From Bacteroidota bacterium (GTDB taxonomy: Bacteria > Bacteroidota > Bacteroidia > UBA7662 > CANHCV01): 64,000 nt of DNA. How positions within the stretch are numbered: position 1 is the first letter of the stretch; each line of letters starts with the position of its first letter. Below are positions 37,232-49,312 of the stretch, one piece after another. The stretch spans positions 1-64,000 of the forward strand of contig CANMVY010000010.1 of the NCBI GenBank assembly GCA_947501265.1, given 5' to 3'. The notes beneath the pieces were generated by a model that saw only the letters and a program-made list of their open reading frames with translations, did not search any database and was not told where the DNA came from. The translations under genes and the position numbers were made by a program.

Positions 37232-38458
37232 ATGAAAAAACTTGCCTTTCTCCTCTTGGGAGGACTTTTTGCTTTTCAAGTTTCTGCACAAAATAACGCG
37301 TTGAATTTCGACGGAATCGATGATTACGTTCAAACCAGCATTCCTTCGATTCAAGGAACGGCTGCAAAAACGTACGAAGCATGGATTCGTACCACCGCAA
37401 ATGCAAATCCGAATGCCGGTGGTACTCAAAAAGCCATTATTGATATGGGTTCGTTCACCACCGGAGCACGATTTACCATGAGTTTGTTGTTCAATAACGG
37501 CATTCGAATTGAAGTGGGAGGAAGTGGCCTGAATTCTACCCGTCCGCTCAACGACGGGCTATGGCACCATGTGGCTGCGGTGTACGATCCCTTGAGTTCT
37601 TCTGCTTCTTACTTTTTATACGTAGATGGAGCTTTGGATACCAGTGGGGTATTGACTACGGCCATCAATACCGGCGCGGGAGATGTGGTGATCGGGCGCA
37701 GGATCGATGGCATCAATCGTTGGAACGGCGATTTGGATGAAGTTCGGATCTGGAGTGTGGCGCGGACGGCCAGCGAAATTCAAACCAATTACAACAAGCG
37801 CCTTTGTTCGTTTCCGGGTACTTTGGCCGGGTATTACCGCTTTAACCAGGGCGTTGCTGGTGGAAACAATGTGCTCGTTTCCACCGCCATCAACGAACTA
37901 ACTCGAAATGGAGACGGGATCTTGAATAACTTTTCGCTAACGGGAACCTCCTCCAATTGGGTGGCAAGTAGCGTCCTGTTGGATACGGTAGATACGCGAG
38001 TTACCCGTTCGGGAAACACGTTCACAGCCGTTGCCACGAACGCTCAATTTCAATGGTTGAATTGCAACGGCTTTTCAGTCATTTCCAACGCGACCAATTC
38101 AACATTTTCGGCTACGGCAAACGGAAGTTATGCCGTAAAGGTGACTCAAAACGGCTGCTCGGATACGTCCGCCTGTTACACGGTTACGGGCGTTGGAACA
38201 TCATCAACCACCTTAGAGGAAAACCTGCTGATTTATCCCATGCCGTTGAATGATGGAGGAACAGTACAATTCGGAGGGCAGGGTTCTTTTTCGGTAAAAT
38301 TAATTGACATGACGGGAAAGGTTGTGCTGTTTCAAAACGGAAATGGAACATCTCCGCTGTTCATTTCCACAACGACCTTGAAAAACGGCATGTATCTGCT
38401 GGAATTAGAAAGTCAAATGGGAGTATTCATTCGGAAAAAGGTCACTCTTCTTCATTAA
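37232..38458 (+). CDS. Secreted LamG-domain protein with type IX sorting tail
   Basis: The 408-residue protein has a signal peptide (MKKLAFLLLGGLFAFQVSAQ), a LamG/concanavalin-like domain at residues ~20-200 (ALNFDGIDDYVQTSIPSIQG ... GLWHHVAAVYDP ... RRIDGINRWNGDLDEVRIW), a short Ig-like region and a C-terminal sorting domain (LIYPMPLNDGGTVQF ... KLIDMTGKVVLFQ ... NGMYLLELE). It is likely a surface adhesin or carbohydrate-binding protein exported by T9SS. Ligand unknown. Confidence 0.88.
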   Translation: MKKLAFLLLGGLFAFQVSAQNNALNFDGIDDYVQTSIPSIQGTAAKTYEAWIRTTANANPNAGGTQKAIIDMGSFTTGARFTMSLLFNNGIRIEVGGSGLNSTRPLNDGLWHHVAAVYDPLSSSASYFLYVDGALDTSGVLTTAINTGAGDVVIGRRIDGINRWNGDLDEVRIWSVARTASEIQTNYNKRLCSFPGTLAGYYRFNQGVAGGNNVLVSTAINELTRNGDGILNNFSLTGTSSNWVASSVLLDTVDTRVTRSGNTFTAVATNAQFQWLNCNGFSVISNATNSTFSATANGSYAVKVTQNGCSDTSACYTVTGVGTSSTTLEENLLIYPMPLNDGGTVQFGGQGSFSVKLIDMTGKVVLFQNGNGTSPLFISTTTLKNGMYLLELESQMGVFIRKKVTLLH

Positions 38459-39867: not shown

Positions 39868-40258
39868 GGGAAATGGATGTAAAAATGCGGGAAATCTTCT
39901 CTTTTTTCAAAATTTTTTGTCCGGTTTTTCCGGTAGCGATGCACCGATCGCCAACGAATACATCGATGGAGCAGATGACTTCGTGGCCGGATACGGAAAG
40001 CAGCATGGCGGTTAGGGTCACTTCTTGGCCCACCAAAGCCGGACTTTTGTGTTGAATTTCGAGGAAAGTGCCGATGCCTTCTTCGTCTTCATCCAGCATT
40101 TCGAGCACGAATTGCCGGCCGGCCCATTCCAGATCGCGGGCCAACGCAAACGTGGCATAAACCGGGTGCACTTGGCCCGTTTCAAAAGCTGCGGTGTCGG
40201 CCGGTTGAACGAGATGACGAATGGTTAGGGTTTGGCCGATGGAAAACGGATTCTTCAT
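39860..40258 (-). CDS. Hotdog-fold thioesterase-like protein (FlK-like)
   Basis: The 132-residue protein resembles the fluoroacetyl-CoA thioesterase family: TGQVHPVYATFALARDLEWA near the middle, then GTFLEIQHKSPALVGQEVTL. The conserved His and Glu positions fit a hotdog thioesterase. The real acyl-CoA substrate is unknown. It lies between the DtxR-like regulator and smpB, overlapping both. Confidence 0.75.
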   Translation of the reverse strand: MKNPFSIGQTLTIRHLVQPADTAAFETGQVHPVYATFALARDLEWAGRQFVLEMLDEDEEGIGTFLEIQHKSPALVGQEVTLTAMLLSVSGHEVICSIDVFVGDRCIATGKTGQKILKKEKISRIFTSISHE

Positions 40259-40926
40259 CGGTTAGCTTTTTTGAGCAATAAATTGTGCGCTACTTTGCTG
40301 GTGATGAGGATTTCTGTGGCATTGGGCGCCATTTTAACCACGTAAGAATCGTCGAAAGGATGGTGTTCAACAATGGTCAGAACGGTTCCGAGTGCAATTC
40401 CCATTCGGGTGAGAAGGCGCAGGAAGTCGGTATCGTCTTCGGTTACTGCGCACACTTTCCAGATATGTTGAAAATCGGTAATTTGGGTGAGGGGAACAGC
40501 GGCGATGGAGCGAATGTGGCCATCGGCGGAAGGAATGGGATCGCCGTGGGGGTCAATTTCAGGAAATCCCAAAAACACATCCAACCGCTCGATCAGCAGG
40601 TCGGAATCGATGTGTTCCAATTCTTCGGCAATTTCGTGAATTTCGTCCCAGGTGAACTGTAGCTTTTCAACTAAAAAAACCTCCCAAATGCGGTGCCTAC
40701 GTATGATCGACAAAGCTAATTTAGCTCCTTCTTGCGTTAGAAAAGCACCTTTGTACTTCACGTGGTCCACCAACTTCTTTTCGTGAAGCTTCTTAATCAT
40801 GTCGGTTACCGAAGCCGGTGTGCTTTTCAATAAATCAGCCAAAGCATTGGTGTTGACCGACTTATTGGAGCCATCGCTCAATTTATAGAGCGCTTTTAAG
40901 TAGTTTTCTTCGGTTATGGAAAGCAT
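40255..40926 (-). CDS. DtxR/MntR-family metal-dependent repressor
   Basis: The 223-residue regulator has an N-terminal winged helix (LKALYKLSDGSNKSVNTNAL, STPASVTDMIKKL) and a dimerisation and metal-binding domain (RRHRIWEVFLVEKLQFTWDE, EELEHIDSDLLIERLD, FPEIDPHGDPIP), followed by a C-terminal SH3-like FeoA domain (VLTIVEHHPFDDSYVVK). It should respond to Mn2+ or Fe2+. A TAnnTTTG box lies only 4 bases before its ATG. It is the first gene of a unit with the thioesterase-like, smpB and folP genes. Confidence 0.94.
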   Translation of the reverse strand: MLSITEENYLKALYKLSDGSNKSVNTNALADLLKSTPASVTDMIKKLHEKKLVDHVKYKGAFLTQEGAKLALSIIRRHRIWEVFLVEKLQFTWDEIHEIAEELEHIDSDLLIERLDVFLGFPEIDPHGDPIPSADGHIRSIAAVPLTQITDFQHIWKVCAVTEDDTDFLRLLTRMGIALGTVLTIVEHHPFDDSYVVKMAPNATEILITSKVAHNLLLKKANR

Positions 40927-40930
40927 TCTA

Positions 40931-40938
40931 CAAATGTA
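40931..40938 (-). promoter_or_regulatory. Candidate -7 box for the DtxR-like gene
   Basis: Minus-strand TACATTTG is an exact TAnnTTTG ending 4 bases before the ATG at 40926. If used, the transcript is leaderless or nearly so. Confidence 0.45.
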
Positions 40939-40957
40939 AATAAAGAATAAATAGGGT

Positions 40958-40965
40958 TATCTTTG
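40958..40965 (+). promoter_or_regulatory. Candidate -7 box for the exporter operon
   Basis: TATCTTTG is an exact TAnnTTTG about 70 bases before the ATG at 41037, giving a leader of about 65 bases. Confidence 0.5.
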
Positions 40966-41036
40966 GGAGCAGAAAAGTTTTGGTTTATCTTACTAACCAG
41001 TTCCAACCAATTGACGTCCATTTCTGTTATCGAAAT

Positions 41037-42749
41037 ATGCATATTCTTGACTTGTCCTCATTGAAGGGTTTAAATGGAAAACCCATTCGCAGGCTTTTTC
41101 GTTTGCTGAAGCCCGAACGCGCATTTATTAAGCGATTGTACTGGGTTTCTATTCTCTCCGGTTTGTTTGGCTTGGTCGTTCCGCTTTGCATTCAAGCCAT
41201 TTTTACGTTCATTCAAGCAGGCCAAGCTTCGGCATCGCTTTGGGTGTTGTTAAGTTTTTTGTTGGTTGGCTTGCTTATTTCTGGAAACCTAACGCTTACC
41301 CAGCTGAACATCAATGAAACGTTGCAACAGCGATTGTTTGCTCGCATTGGTTTTGACTTTACCGAGCGAATTCCTCGCTGGAGGTCGGATGAGCACCATG
41401 CTCCCGAAATGGTGAACCGTTTTTTCGAGGTTTTAACCATTCAAAAATCTCTGTCAAAGGTTTTAATCGACTTTTTCTCGGCGCTTCTGCAAGTGTTTTT
41501 TGGTTTATTACTTCTTTCCTTTTACCATCCATTGTTCATCGTTTTCGGCTTGGCATCCATCGGTACCATCATCGTTGCATTTCGAGTTATGGGGCCAAAT
41601 GGAATGAAATCAAGTCTTGGAGAATCTTCTTCAAAGTATGCCATGGTTTATTGGCTGGAAGAGATCGCTCGCTTTATTGACGTTTTTAAACTATCCGGCG
41701 CGCCCAACCTACCCGTTCAAAAATCGAACGCCCTCGTTGAACAATACGTTGATTACCGAACCGAGCATTATAAGATTTTGAGGAATCACTACATCATGCT
41801 TATTGGGTTCAAAATTATTACCGTTTCCGGGTTAATTATGTTGGGTACCTTTTTGGTTTTCAATGAAATGATCAGCATTGGTCAGTTCGTAGCCTCCGAA
41901 ATTGTGATGGTTTTGGTGATTCAATCGGTAGAAAAAATCATTTTTTGCATCGATCCAATCTACGATACCCTAACGGCAGTGGAAAAATTGGGAGGCATTG
42001 CCGATTTACCCTTGGCCGAGCATTCCGGAACAACCGAGGTTACCCCGGGCTCCATCTCCATTTCCCTTGACCAGGTTGGAGTTCCCCCAACCACCCTATC
42101 TTTTACGGCTGAAATTCAAGGAAAAGAGATCGTTGGAATTGTAGGTGCGAATGGTTCGGGTAAAACAACCTTGATTAATTTATTAGGAACACGGGTACCC
42201 GATACCACCGGTGTATTGAAATATTCGGGAGTTCGCGTTGAAGCGTTACAGATGGATTCTCTGCGTTCCCGCATTGGTGAAATCATTGAAGATACCGATA
42301 TTTTTGCGGGAAACGTTCGGGAAAACATCAGTTTGGGTCGCCCAGGTGTAACCGATCAATCGATTCGGGAAGCTTGCGAAGGATTGGGATGCTGGGACGA
42401 TTTGCAGCGTTTACCGAAGGGATTGGATACAACCTTAACCCCAGGAGCACCCGGGCTTCCTCGTTCGTTAGCCATGAAAATTTCCTTGGCCCGGGGCGTG
42501 GTAACCCAACCTTCCCTCTTGCTCATTGATGCAACTTTGGTGACTTTAACCCGAAGCGAAAGGACCAAAATTTTGGATTACCTAACCCGCGCAGACCGCC
42601 CGTGGACCTTGATCGCTTCCATCCATCATCATGATTTTATGCAACGATGCGATCAAATTCTTCATCTTGAAAAAGGAAAAGTTGGGGGCGTTTTCAAATT
42701 GGAGGAAGCTGAAAAACAATCGTTCTACACCGAGTTAATGGTTTACTAA
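41037..42749 (+). CDS. ABC exporter (type I-like) with degenerate ATPase domain
   Basis: The 570-residue protein starts at ATG 41037 (MHILDLSSLKG). Residues ~25-310 hold about six membrane helices of a type I ABC exporter. The ATPase domain has Walker A GANGSGKTTL and the Q-loop region IGEIIEDTDIF. Where LSGGQ is expected it reads LPRSLAMKISLARG, and Walker B is LLLIDATL, with Ala in place of the catalytic Glu. The switch region is SIHHHDF. It probably binds ATP but hydrolyses it poorly. It is followed by HlyD- and TolC-like genes. Confidence 0.9.
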   Translation: MHILDLSSLKGLNGKPIRRLFRLLKPERAFIKRLYWVSILSGLFGLVVPLCIQAIFTFIQAGQASASLWVLLSFLLVGLLISGNLTLTQLNINETLQQRLFARIGFDFTERIPRWRSDEHHAPEMVNRFFEVLTIQKSLSKVLIDFFSALLQVFFGLLLLSFYHPLFIVFGLASIGTIIVAFRVMGPNGMKSSLGESSSKYAMVYWLEEIARFIDVFKLSGAPNLPVQKSNALVEQYVDYRTEHYKILRNHYIMLIGFKIITVSGLIMLGTFLVFNEMISIGQFVASEIVMVLVIQSVEKIIFCIDPIYDTLTAVEKLGGIADLPLAEHSGTTEVTPGSISISLDQVGVPPTTLSFTAEIQGKEIVGIVGANGSGKTTLINLLGTRVPDTTGVLKYSGVRVEALQMDSLRSRIGEIIEDTDIFAGNVRENISLGRPGVTDQSIREACEGLGCWDDLQRLPKGLDTTLTPGAPGLPRSLAMKISLARGVVTQPSLLLIDATLVTLTRSERTKILDYLTRADRPWTLIASIHHHDFMQRCDQILHLEKGKVGGVFKLEEAEKQSFYTELMVY

Positions 42750-42751
42750 TT

Positions 42752-44083
42752 ATGGGACATCATCGCCATCGCTACAACGCTTATAACCACATTTTCGAAC
42801 GGCAACCCAAAGCCATTTTCAAAGTCACCGGACGATTTGCGCTCATCCTCATGTTCATCACTCTCTTTTTACCTTGGACCCAAAATTTTCGAGGAAAAGG
42901 CAAACTCACCACGTTAAACCCCAGCGAACGTCCGCAAACCCTCAATTCAATCATTCCAGGTAGAATTGAAAAATGGTACGTCCAAGAAGGGCAACGGGTA
43001 AAAAAAGGAGATACCATGTTGTTCATTTCGGAGGTAAAAGAAGATTATTTGGATCCCAACCTCGTGCCTCGAACCGACGATCAGATTCTCTCCAAAGAAA
43101 AAGGAATAGGATCGTATCAATCGAAACTGAAAGCCCTTGAAAATCAGTACAAAGCCATCGAACGAGATCAGGTTTTGAAAACAGCCCAATTGCGAAACAA
43201 AGTGAAGCAAACCCGGGCAAAGATGATTTCCGACTCTGCCAAAATCGTGGAAGCGGAGGTGAAGTTGGTGATCGCGAAAAGACAAATTGAGGCCTTTGAA
43301 AAAATGTACAAAGATGGCATCAAATCGTTGGCCGAATACGAAGCAAAAAAAGCTTCATTCCAGCAAGCAATCACCGATAAAACGGCGATGCTGAACAATT
43401 ACATCACGTCAGAAAACGAATGGATCAACGCCCAGTTGCAACTTAACAATCTGAACAACGAATTTGAGCAGAAACTGGCGTACAACCAAGCCGATCGATT
43501 TGCCCTTGAATCCCAAATTTTCGATGGAGAAGCCACCGTATCTAAAATGCGCATTCAACGCTCCAATTACTCCATTCGTACCCAAAACTATTACGTTCTC
43601 GCCCCTCAAGACGGTTATGTGGTAAAAGCCCTGAAATCGGGTATTGGTGAAGTGATCAAAGAAGGAACCCCTTTGGTAGAAATTCAACCCTATCCTTTCA
43701 AAATTGCTGCTGAAATGTACGTCGATCCCTTGAACGTGGCCTTGGTGGAAAAAGGACAGAAAGTACGGCTTCAATTTGATGGATGGCCAGCCTTAGTTTT
43801 TGGCGGTTGGCCCGGCGTTTCGTTTGGAACGTTTGGCGGCGTTGTCGTAGCCATCGACCAAACCATCAGCGAAAATGGCAAATACCGTTTGCTCATTGCC
43901 CCAGATTCTGCCGATAAAGCCTGGCCCAATTTGTTGAAAGTGGGAACCGGAGCGAACGGAATTGGGCTGTTGAAAGACGTTCCCATTTGGTATGAACTTT
44001 GGCGAAACATCAACGGATTCCCACCCGAATACTACAAACCATCTGAACAAGCAGGAAAAGAATCGAATAAAAAAGAAAAATGA
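42752..44083 (+). CDS. HlyD-family membrane fusion protein
   Basis: The 443-residue periplasmic adaptor has one N-terminal membrane helix (residues ~28-44, FALILMFITLFLPW), a lipoyl half-motif (IIPGRIEKWYVQEGQRVKKG), a long alpha-helical hairpin (~100-250) and a second lipoyl half with APQDGYVVKALKSGIGEVIK. It would bridge the ABC exporter and the TolC-like channel. It lies 2 bases after the exporter gene. Confidence 0.92.
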   Translation: MGHHRHRYNAYNHIFERQPKAIFKVTGRFALILMFITLFLPWTQNFRGKGKLTTLNPSERPQTLNSIIPGRIEKWYVQEGQRVKKGDTMLFISEVKEDYLDPNLVPRTDDQILSKEKGIGSYQSKLKALENQYKAIERDQVLKTAQLRNKVKQTRAKMISDSAKIVEAEVKLVIAKRQIEAFEKMYKDGIKSLAEYEAKKASFQQAITDKTAMLNNYITSENEWINAQLQLNNLNNEFEQKLAYNQADRFALESQIFDGEATVSKMRIQRSNYSIRTQNYYVLAPQDGYVVKALKSGIGEVIKEGTPLVEIQPYPFKIAAEMYVDPLNVALVEKGQKVRLQFDGWPALVFGGWPGVSFGTFGGVVVAIDQTISENGKYRLLIAPDSADKAWPNLLKVGTGANGIGLLKDVPIWYELWRNINGFPPEYYKPSEQAGKESNKKEK

Positions 44084-45462
44084 TGCGCATTTTCGGACTA
44101 CTTTTTCTTTTTTCCGCGATGGGAATTCAGGGGCAAAATAACCAAATCCTTACCCGTGATGCTTTTGTAGAACAGGTCAAGCAGCACCATCCCATTGCTT
44201 TTGCCGCGGGGTTGATGGACAATAAGGCCGCAGCCACAGTGTTGCAGGCCCGCGGAGCTTTCGATCCGGCTCTTCAAGGAAAATTGAACCAGAAAACCTT
44301 CTCGGGAACGCAATACTTCAACCTCTTAGAAACCGGTTTGCTGCTCCCCACCCGAAGTCCCGTAGAATTTTCAATGGGTTGGGAACAAAATGCAGGAACG
44401 TTCGTCAACCCGGAAGACAAAACACCCAGTACAGGTTTAGGAAGCTTAGGAATTGGAGTTAATTTAGGAAAAGGGTTGCTGATGGATGCCCGACGGGCTT
44501 CCCTTCGTCAGGCATTGCTCTTGCAAGATGCGGCACCATTCCAAATTCAATCCATGCTGAGCGATCTTTTGGCTCAGGCAGAAATGGATTATTGGAATTG
44601 GGCGCTCACGAAGGAAAAACTAGCACTGTACCAAGAAGCGAGTGACCTTGCTTTTCAACGTTTGAGACTCATTCGTGGAGCCTTGGAACAAGGCGACCGG
44701 CCCACCATCGATACCGTAGAGGCCTATGCCCAATGGCAGTTGCGCCAAATTAACGTTGAACAGGCAAAAGCCGAATATTTGGCCGCCACCAATTTGATCG
44801 AAGCTTACCTGTGGAAAGACGGACTTGTTCCCGATCAATTGCCTTCAGCAACCATTCCACAAAGCATACAAGTTGCCGCTTTAACGGCTGTAAATCTTGA
44901 TTTGCTCACGCAATGGATAACGGGGTTGGATCAACATCCCATTTTGAAAGCCCTGGATGCTGAAATCGCCATGCAGGAGGTTGAAATCAAATTGAAGAAG
45001 GAGAGTTTACGACCTGAATTGAAAGTAAAGTACAACTTGCTCAGTGGAAATCCCGCCCAAATTGGGACGTATTTTGAAGACGGCTACAAATGGGGCGGTT
45101 CGGCAGCTTTTCCATTGTTGCTTCGTTCCGCCCGAGGAGGCGTTCAAATTTCTACCATCAAAAAACAAGAATTGGAAGCCAAGCGCTTTCAAAAGAAAAA
45201 CGAAATCCGAGTGAAAATAGAAACGTATGCTGAACTTTCTGGAATTTTCAATCGACAAACCCAATTGGCAGAAGAACAAATGAATCGCTTCAAACAATTG
45301 TACGATGTAGAACAAATTCGTTTGCTTCAAGGTGATGGATCTGTTTTCTTAATCAATACCCGCGAAGCAAAATGGGTGGAATCCCGCGAAAAAGTACTGG
45401 ATCTTTATTTTAAAGTGCGCAAAAACCAAATTTCTTTGCAAAATTCGCGTGGATTATTCTAA
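44080..45462 (+). CDS. TolC-family outer-membrane efflux protein
   Basis: The 460-residue protein has a signal peptide (MMRIFGLLFLFSAMGIQGQ) and two repeats of the coiled-coil OEP domain, for example LSDLLAQAEMDYWNWALTKE and QLAEEQMNRFKQLYDVEQIR. Coupled to the adaptor gene by a 4-base overlap. It gives the outer-membrane exit of the exporter. Confidence 0.9.
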   Translation: MMRIFGLLFLFSAMGIQGQNNQILTRDAFVEQVKQHHPIAFAAGLMDNKAAATVLQARGAFDPALQGKLNQKTFSGTQYFNLLETGLLLPTRSPVEFSMGWEQNAGTFVNPEDKTPSTGLGSLGIGVNLGKGLLMDARRASLRQALLLQDAAPFQIQSMLSDLLAQAEMDYWNWALTKEKLALYQEASDLAFQRLRLIRGALEQGDRPTIDTVEAYAQWQLRQINVEQAKAEYLAATNLIEAYLWKDGLVPDQLPSATIPQSIQVAALTAVNLDLLTQWITGLDQHPILKALDAEIAMQEVEIKLKKESLRPELKVKYNLLSGNPAQIGTYFEDGYKWGGSAAFPLLLRSARGGVQISTIKKQELEAKRFQKKNEIRVKIETYAELSGIFNRQTQLAEEQMNRFKQLYDVEQIRLLQGDGSVFLINTREAKWVESREKVLDLYFKVRKNQISLQNSRGLF

Positions 45463-48874: not shown

Positions 48875-49300
48875 TTAAAAATCAAAATCTCCATCATTAT
48901 CAGAATCAACTGCATAATCATCTGCAATTCCATCTCCGTCGTAATCCATAGCGACAACATCAACATCTCCATCACCATCAGTATCATATGCCATGGTATC
49001 TACCTGACCGTCACCGTCTGTATCCATTGCCACCGTATCAACTTGACCGTCACCATTTGTATCATATGCCACCGTATCAACTTGACCGTCACCATCTGAA
49101 TCCATTGCAATTGTATCAACATGCCCATCCCCATCAGTATCATAGGCTATTGTGTCGATAAAACCATCATCATCACTGTCTATTGCTATAACATCTGAAT
49201 CACCATCATTATCAGAATCAATAAAAATGGCATCAGCATACCCGTCATTATTTGTATCTTTTGCGACAGATTCATTAATTCCATCATTATTTAGGTCTAG
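48875..49300. repeat. 39-base coding tandem repeat
   Basis: The gene for the Asp-rich protein consists of about eleven direct copies of a 39-base unit. Several middle copies share long nearly identical stretches around 48990-49110 (GTATCAACTTGACCGTCACC recurs), which suggests recent duplication. Copies are contiguous with no spacers, so this is not a CRISPR array. Confidence 0.88.
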
Positions 49301-49312
49301 GTTTTTATTCAT
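48875..49312 (-). CDS. Protein built of eleven 13-residue Asp-rich calcium-loop-like repeats
   Basis: The protein is 145 residues: 5 N-terminal residues (MNKNL), ten full 13-residue repeats and a last one of 10. The consensus is D-x-[DN]-[GND]-D-G-x-x-[DE]-x-x-A-x, for example DTDGDGQVDTVAM, close to the DxDxDG calcium loop of EF-hands and type-3 repeats. There is no signal peptide, membrane segment or other domain. The next gene on the strand is the zinc-ribbon membrane protein. Calcium binding is inferred from the loop. Confidence 0.85.
   Translation of the reverse strand: MNKNLDLNNDGINESVAKDTNNDGYADAIFIDSDNDGDSDVIAIDSDDDGFIDTIAYDTDGDGHVDTIAMDSDGDGQVDTVAYDTNGDGQVDTVAMDTDGDGQVDTMAYDTDGDGDVDVVAMDYDGDGIADDYAVDSDNDGDFDF

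Follow-up and report, generated by a model that had tools for sequence, protein, structure and literature searches.

ATP use is a defining trait of ABC exporters. How, then, could an exporter work if its own ATPase domain has lost the signature and the catalytic Glu? This question is raised by a half-transporter gene in the window, by which is meant the whole analyzed stretch of 64,000 nucleotides from a Bacteroidota bacterium. An earlier note had placed the altered ATPase at 42116-42749, which covers the ATPase half; the whole gene, encoding the protein P0001, occupies 41037-42749 on the + strand, and its ATG start codon at 41037 is backed by the two congeners L001 and L002. The genes for the exporter, HlyD and TolC are successive open reading frames that overlap or nearly touch, and the ABC, HlyD and TolC gene set of a type I secretion system is complete in the window. 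The features of the locus are as follows.

40255..40926, - strand: DtxR/MntR-type regulator, divergent neighbour, beside the exporter also in L001 and L002
41037..42749, + strand: half-transporter gene (P0001), 570 aa, joining a transmembrane domain (TMD) to a degenerate ABC ATPase domain; same ORF in L001 and L002
41079..42041, + strand: TMD, residues about 15-335, the part retained in all relatives
41880..41936, + strand: TM6 segment GQFVASE...EK (residues 282-300), which holds the conserved intramembrane residues E288, E299 and K300
42072..42746, + strand: degenerate nucleotide-binding domain (NBD), residues 346-570
42144..42170, + strand: Walker A GANGSGKTT, residues 370-378, intact
42288..42290, + strand: Q-loop position, residue 418, Glu replacing Gln by alignment to intact exporters
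42456..42470, + strand: signature position, residues 474-478, LPRSL and not LSGGQ
42516..42533, + strand: Walker B LLLIDA, Asp retained, catalytic Glu position Ala (residue 499)
42624..42626, + strand: H-loop position, residue 530, occupied by a His that few family members have (6/82)
42752..44083, + strand: HlyD-type periplasmic adaptor, 443 aa (Pfam HlyD_3 2.4e-12)
44080..45462, + strand: TolC-type outer membrane channel, 460 aa (Pfam OEP 1.9e-24)

The HlyD and TolC partners had been described as normal, and the Pfam matches confirmed this. In the window genus, a DtxR/MntR-like gene stands divergently where many other family loci have TetR, and it may be associated with the exporter. The 110 bp between the two (40927-41036) form a divergent putative promoter region with a possible operator, found in all three congeners. 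Elsewhere in the window, a 145-aa protein made of Asp/Gly repeats of the type DTDGDGQVDTVAY is encoded at 48875-49312 (- strand), and a LamG-like protein with a putative type 9 secretion sorting domain at its end is encoded at 37232-38458 (+ strand).

The motif residues of P0001 were read from alignment columns against intact exporters. The Walker A Lys (K376), the Walker B Asp (D498) and the His at the H-loop position (H530) are kept, and neither the LSGGQ signature nor the catalytic Glu after Walker B is present. The earlier readings of an intact Walker A, a lost signature and an Ala for the catalytic Glu were all correct, but further losses had been missed: besides the Q-loop Gln, a deletion has removed the A-loop aromatic residue, and Thr replaces the D-loop Asp. 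In two independent congeneric MAGs (L001 and L002), the only ones found, the gene is 97 and 94% identical, and both its substitutions and its neighbours are the same. Since both congeners carry every change, the motif loss in P0001 is not an error. Nor is it due to chance, because the genome encodes five further half-transporters, all with intact motifs, and the control exporters were near perfect (seven of seven catalytic residues in 11 of 12, six of seven in the twelfth). A Pfam ABC_tran match of 1.6e-14 and 55 bits (cut-off 25) showed that the ABC fold is present in the NBD. AlphaFold2 run on P0001 with three congeneric sequences gave a pLDDT of 35, and the model was set aside.

Homologs at an E of 1e-40 or better were found in 211 of 396 Bacteroidia genomes, corresponding to 119 of 198 genera, and more distant homologs occur in other classes of the phylum. 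Bacteroidia-type NBDs from 82 members, including the Riemerella, Persicobacter, Aureibacter and Sphingobium records, were aligned. On a seven-residue score, a mean of 1.8 canonical residues survived in these 82, compared to 5.3 in 11 relatives from other classes and 6.9 in the 12 control exporters. The Walker A Lys survived in 72 of the 82, but only 14 members have the catalytic Glu, 6 an H-loop His and 2 the second Gly of LSGGQ; LSGGQ itself was present in no aligned Bacteroidia member. What stands in its place is not random, LP[RK]S[IV]xxK being the commonest form. In the family Walker B, Asp and Glu have most often swapped places (E-D), and Asp is the commonest state at the catalytic Glu position (49/82). 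Some members, for example L038, L083, L097, L138 and L140, have lost the P-loop though the domain is kept. These alignments show the loss of catalytic residues to be a trait of the whole family.

The alignment with homologs proposed in the earlier note thus showed that the substitutions in the ATPase domain are conserved across a family. Homologs with intact motifs, which the note had linked to a local mutation or sequencing error, do exist: the 11 relatives from other classes all have intact Walker A, Asp and Glu, and 9 have the His. They were found only outside the class, in relatives resembling a less decayed state, and so do not point to a local mutation.

Among named members, Riemerella anatipestifer has a degenerate NBD, Persicobacter and Aureibacter are also represented, and a more distant Sphingobium protein has an NBD devoid of a P-loop. 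Two annotated named members carry the label 'ABC transporter ATP-binding protein'. The Riemerella anatipestifer record (L151) is named a plasmid; it holds rplU, rpmA, miaA and murB and resembles a chromosomal piece. The Sphingobium locus (L154:1362-8156; Sphingobium sp. KCTC 72723 plasmid pHAL16) is a relative from outside Bacteroidota; it has HlyD-like and TolC genes and comes immediately after the gene of a DUF2309 protein. A long N-terminal extension (~170 aa) was seen in L058, L065, L072, L073, L078 and L090 as well as in relatives from other classes; the extended relatives L058, L117 and L118 gave no match to a Pfam peptidase family.

Some relatives have no NBD at all. In ten genomes (6 genera, 3 families), an ORF of 334-361 aa ends with the TMD, and HlyD and TolC follow directly, which leaves no room for an NBD. 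In ten other genomes (7 genera, 4 families), TMD and HlyD form one in-frame protein of about 750 aa, followed by TolC and usually accompanied by a divergent TetR gene. In one example of each form, Pfam matched ABC_membrane and ABC_tran was absent; ABC_membrane matches in relatives include L111 (1.1e-8) and L097 (8.6e-8). Together with the alignment of P0001 to LssB and ComA over both domains, these matches mark the TMD as a homolog of ABC exporter TMDs. A further candidate, L133 (3406-5045), was dropped as a case of NBD loss, its TMD and NBD lying in two overlapping frames, which is possibly a frameshift, an assembly error or a true split gene.

In a tree of 116 TMDs, the TMD-only and the fusion forms made up two separate clades (SH-aLRT 100 and 99), implying at least two independent losses. 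The degenerate-NBD protein L058 is sister to the TMD-only clade, and the P-loop-less L140 was placed beside the fusion clade (support 89). The tree is the product of a quick search, its root is poor and the outgroup branches are long. Because of the weak rooting, the direction of decay was judged by the canonical ABC state and not by the tree. By these gene structures, the NBD was deleted at least twice, and TMD, HlyD and TolC were retained each time.

Codon comparison within the window genus gave an omega of 0.06-0.08 (about 0.07) for the NBD and 0.02 for the TMD; for three intact MsbA-like half-transporters encoded in these genomes, omega was about 0.04 in both domains. The NBD of P0001 is thus constrained, if roughly threefold less than the TMD, and must do something, as it is still under purifying selection. 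When columns were ranked by retention across all forms, TM6 was the most conserved part. An intramembrane Glu, E288, in the TM6 motif GQ[FL]VAxE was kept in 110 of 112 rows, covering all forms, and was absent in both outgroup rows. E299 and K300 in TM6 and K/R259 in TM5 are other conserved charges. E288 is not specific to NBD loss, because it is also conserved in the near-canonical relatives. The loops predicted to contact the NBD were relaxed in the fusions (0.42 kept versus 0.74 for other conserved columns, p 7e-4) and kept in the near-canonical relatives (0.86); the TMD-only clade showed no overall relaxation of these loops.

The neighbourhoods were surveyed for a partner or a cargo. Of 40 class loci, 39 have HlyD and TolC adjoining and 19 have TetR upstream. 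Apart from these three, no conserved neighbour was found within about 10 kb, and no cargo gene was linked. The operons surveyed contained neither a second family member nor a gene for a partner half-transporter; at two loci (L072 and L073), an intact MsbA-like gene with an unrelated TMD lies upstream. A search of the 20 NBD-less genomes for a dedicated stand-alone NBD found none; a near-canonical family NBD matched best to ordinary fused exporters. This argues against a dedicated partner, although a shared ATPase may act in trans. The genome search for a partner half-transporter suggested by the earlier note turned up intact MsbA-like ones, none of them in the operons, and nothing pointed to a pairing with P0001.

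A very slow ATPase, a partner ATPase and work without hydrolysis had been offered as the options for this exporter. The evidence favours the third, since the substitutions are conserved family-wide and the NBD-less relatives retain HlyD and TolC. We consider it probable that P0001 belongs to a Bacteroidota-wide tripartite family (TMD-NBD, HlyD, TolC) of exporters with a decayed ATPase, whose cycle would be independent of their own ATP hydrolysis and possibly driven by the proton-motive force. The essential, conserved machine would be the conduit of TMD, HlyD and TolC, cycling with no need of ATP hydrolysis by its own NBD. With its Walker A intact and purifying selection still acting on it, the NBD of P0001 probably retains its fold, and it may bind ATP, serving as a structural part, gate or clamp. 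With lower confidence, the likeliest driving force would be the proton-motive force, acting via the charged TM5/TM6 residues E288, E299, K300 and K259. The cargo would be a small molecule, as suggested by TetR-type control and the lack of a dedicated cargo gene nearby.

An evolutionary reading is put forward more tentatively: an ABC-type tripartite exporter may have turned into an ATPase-free, ion-gradient-driven trans-envelope pump, its catalytic residues decaying first and the NBD being deleted next, with TMD and HlyD joined into one polypeptide in one lineage. The membrane domain of MsbA is known to move ethidium without its NBD, in a manner dependent on the pH gradient (PMC4979069); that of LmrA likewise moves ethidium with protons and was classed as a secondary-active translocator (PMC6155054).

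An intact half-transporter or stand-alone NBD could instead energise the exporter in trans, with P0001 contributing the degenerate NBD to a heterodimer like TM287/288 or TmrAB. The prevalence of Asp at the catalytic Glu position would fit, as this is the state of such a degenerate half (TmrB D500, PMC8277102), and MsbA-like candidates exist in the genome. However, a heterodimer requires its degenerate NBD, yet this domain was deleted twice; the operons lack a partner gene, the TMDs of the MsbA-like neighbours in L072 and L073 are unrelated, and the NBD-less genomes offered only ordinary fused exporters. Energising in trans appears unlikely. An improbable alternative is that no active transport takes place and the TMD serves as a membrane anchor or a passive regulated gate assembling HlyD and TolC, for diffusion or for hand-over of periplasmic cargo. 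The fusion of TMD to HlyD suits a structural or anchoring role, as does the absence of a linked cargo gene, but the invariant charges in TM5 and TM6 and the TMD omega would be superfluous for a simple anchor, and HlyD already has a TM helix of its own. It is very doubtful that P0001 is a slow but real homodimeric ATPase, in which Walker A, the Walker B Asp and the H-loop His suffice for weak turnover. K376, D498 and H530 are retained and the NBD is under purifying selection, but the catalytic Glu, the Ser and Gly of LSGGQ, the Q-loop Gln, the A-loop aromatic residue and the D-loop Asp are all lost, and relatives do without the P-loop or the entire domain. A local mutation, sequencing error or pseudogene, for which the motif loss has the appearance of decay, was refuted by the congeners and deserves practically no credence, as the frame is open, the substitutions are identical in three MAGs, the NBD omega is low and the changes are conserved family-wide.

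Among known systems, the type I secretion exporters (LssB TIGR03375, HlyB, PrtD) resemble P0001 in being fused TMD-NBD proteins in one operon with HlyD and TolC. Their profiles were the best NCBIfam matches and nearly full length, at a score of 154 against a family cut-off of 693 bits; in contrast to them, the catalytic residues of the NBD are lost here or the NBD is absent, and no RTX-type or other cargo gene adjoins. A match to ComA (8hf7) of the PCAT/ComA type spans the TMD and NBD in one stretch, but P0001 has no C39 peptidase domain and is predicted to lack a functional NBD, and no C39 match was found in the longer relatives scanned. Degenerate-site ABC heterodimers such as TM287/288, TmrAB and TAP pair one degenerate and one intact site (PMC7756269). 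They share the non-canonical Walker B Glu and signature, whereas here no partner gene was seen, both sites of a homodimer would be dead, and some members lack the domain altogether. The laboratory truncations MsbA-MD and LmrA-MD likewise consist of the membrane domain without an NBD, and proton- or ion-coupled transport was measured for them (PMC4979069, PMC6155054). Those constructs are artificial and not tripartite, whereas in the present family the same truncation was apparently made by evolution. The transport subunit of ArsB/ArsAB works with or without its ATPase (PMC4979069), but the fold of ArsB is unrelated and the Ars ATPase is a separate subunit. An open-access literature search of incomplete coverage found no description of the family of P0001, or of any ABC exporter that lacks an NBD and is joined to HlyD. 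This exporter family appears to be previously unremarked.

The family is common, with a member in about half of the sampled Bacteroidia genomes. It offers a graded natural series in one operon context, from a near-canonical NBD through a degenerate NBD, a missing P-loop and a missing NBD to the TMD-HlyD fusion, and its natural NBD-less homologs would make ATP-free transport by the membrane domain directly testable. The findings suggest that a widespread exporter family with a decayed or absent ATPase may run on something other than its own ATP hydrolysis.
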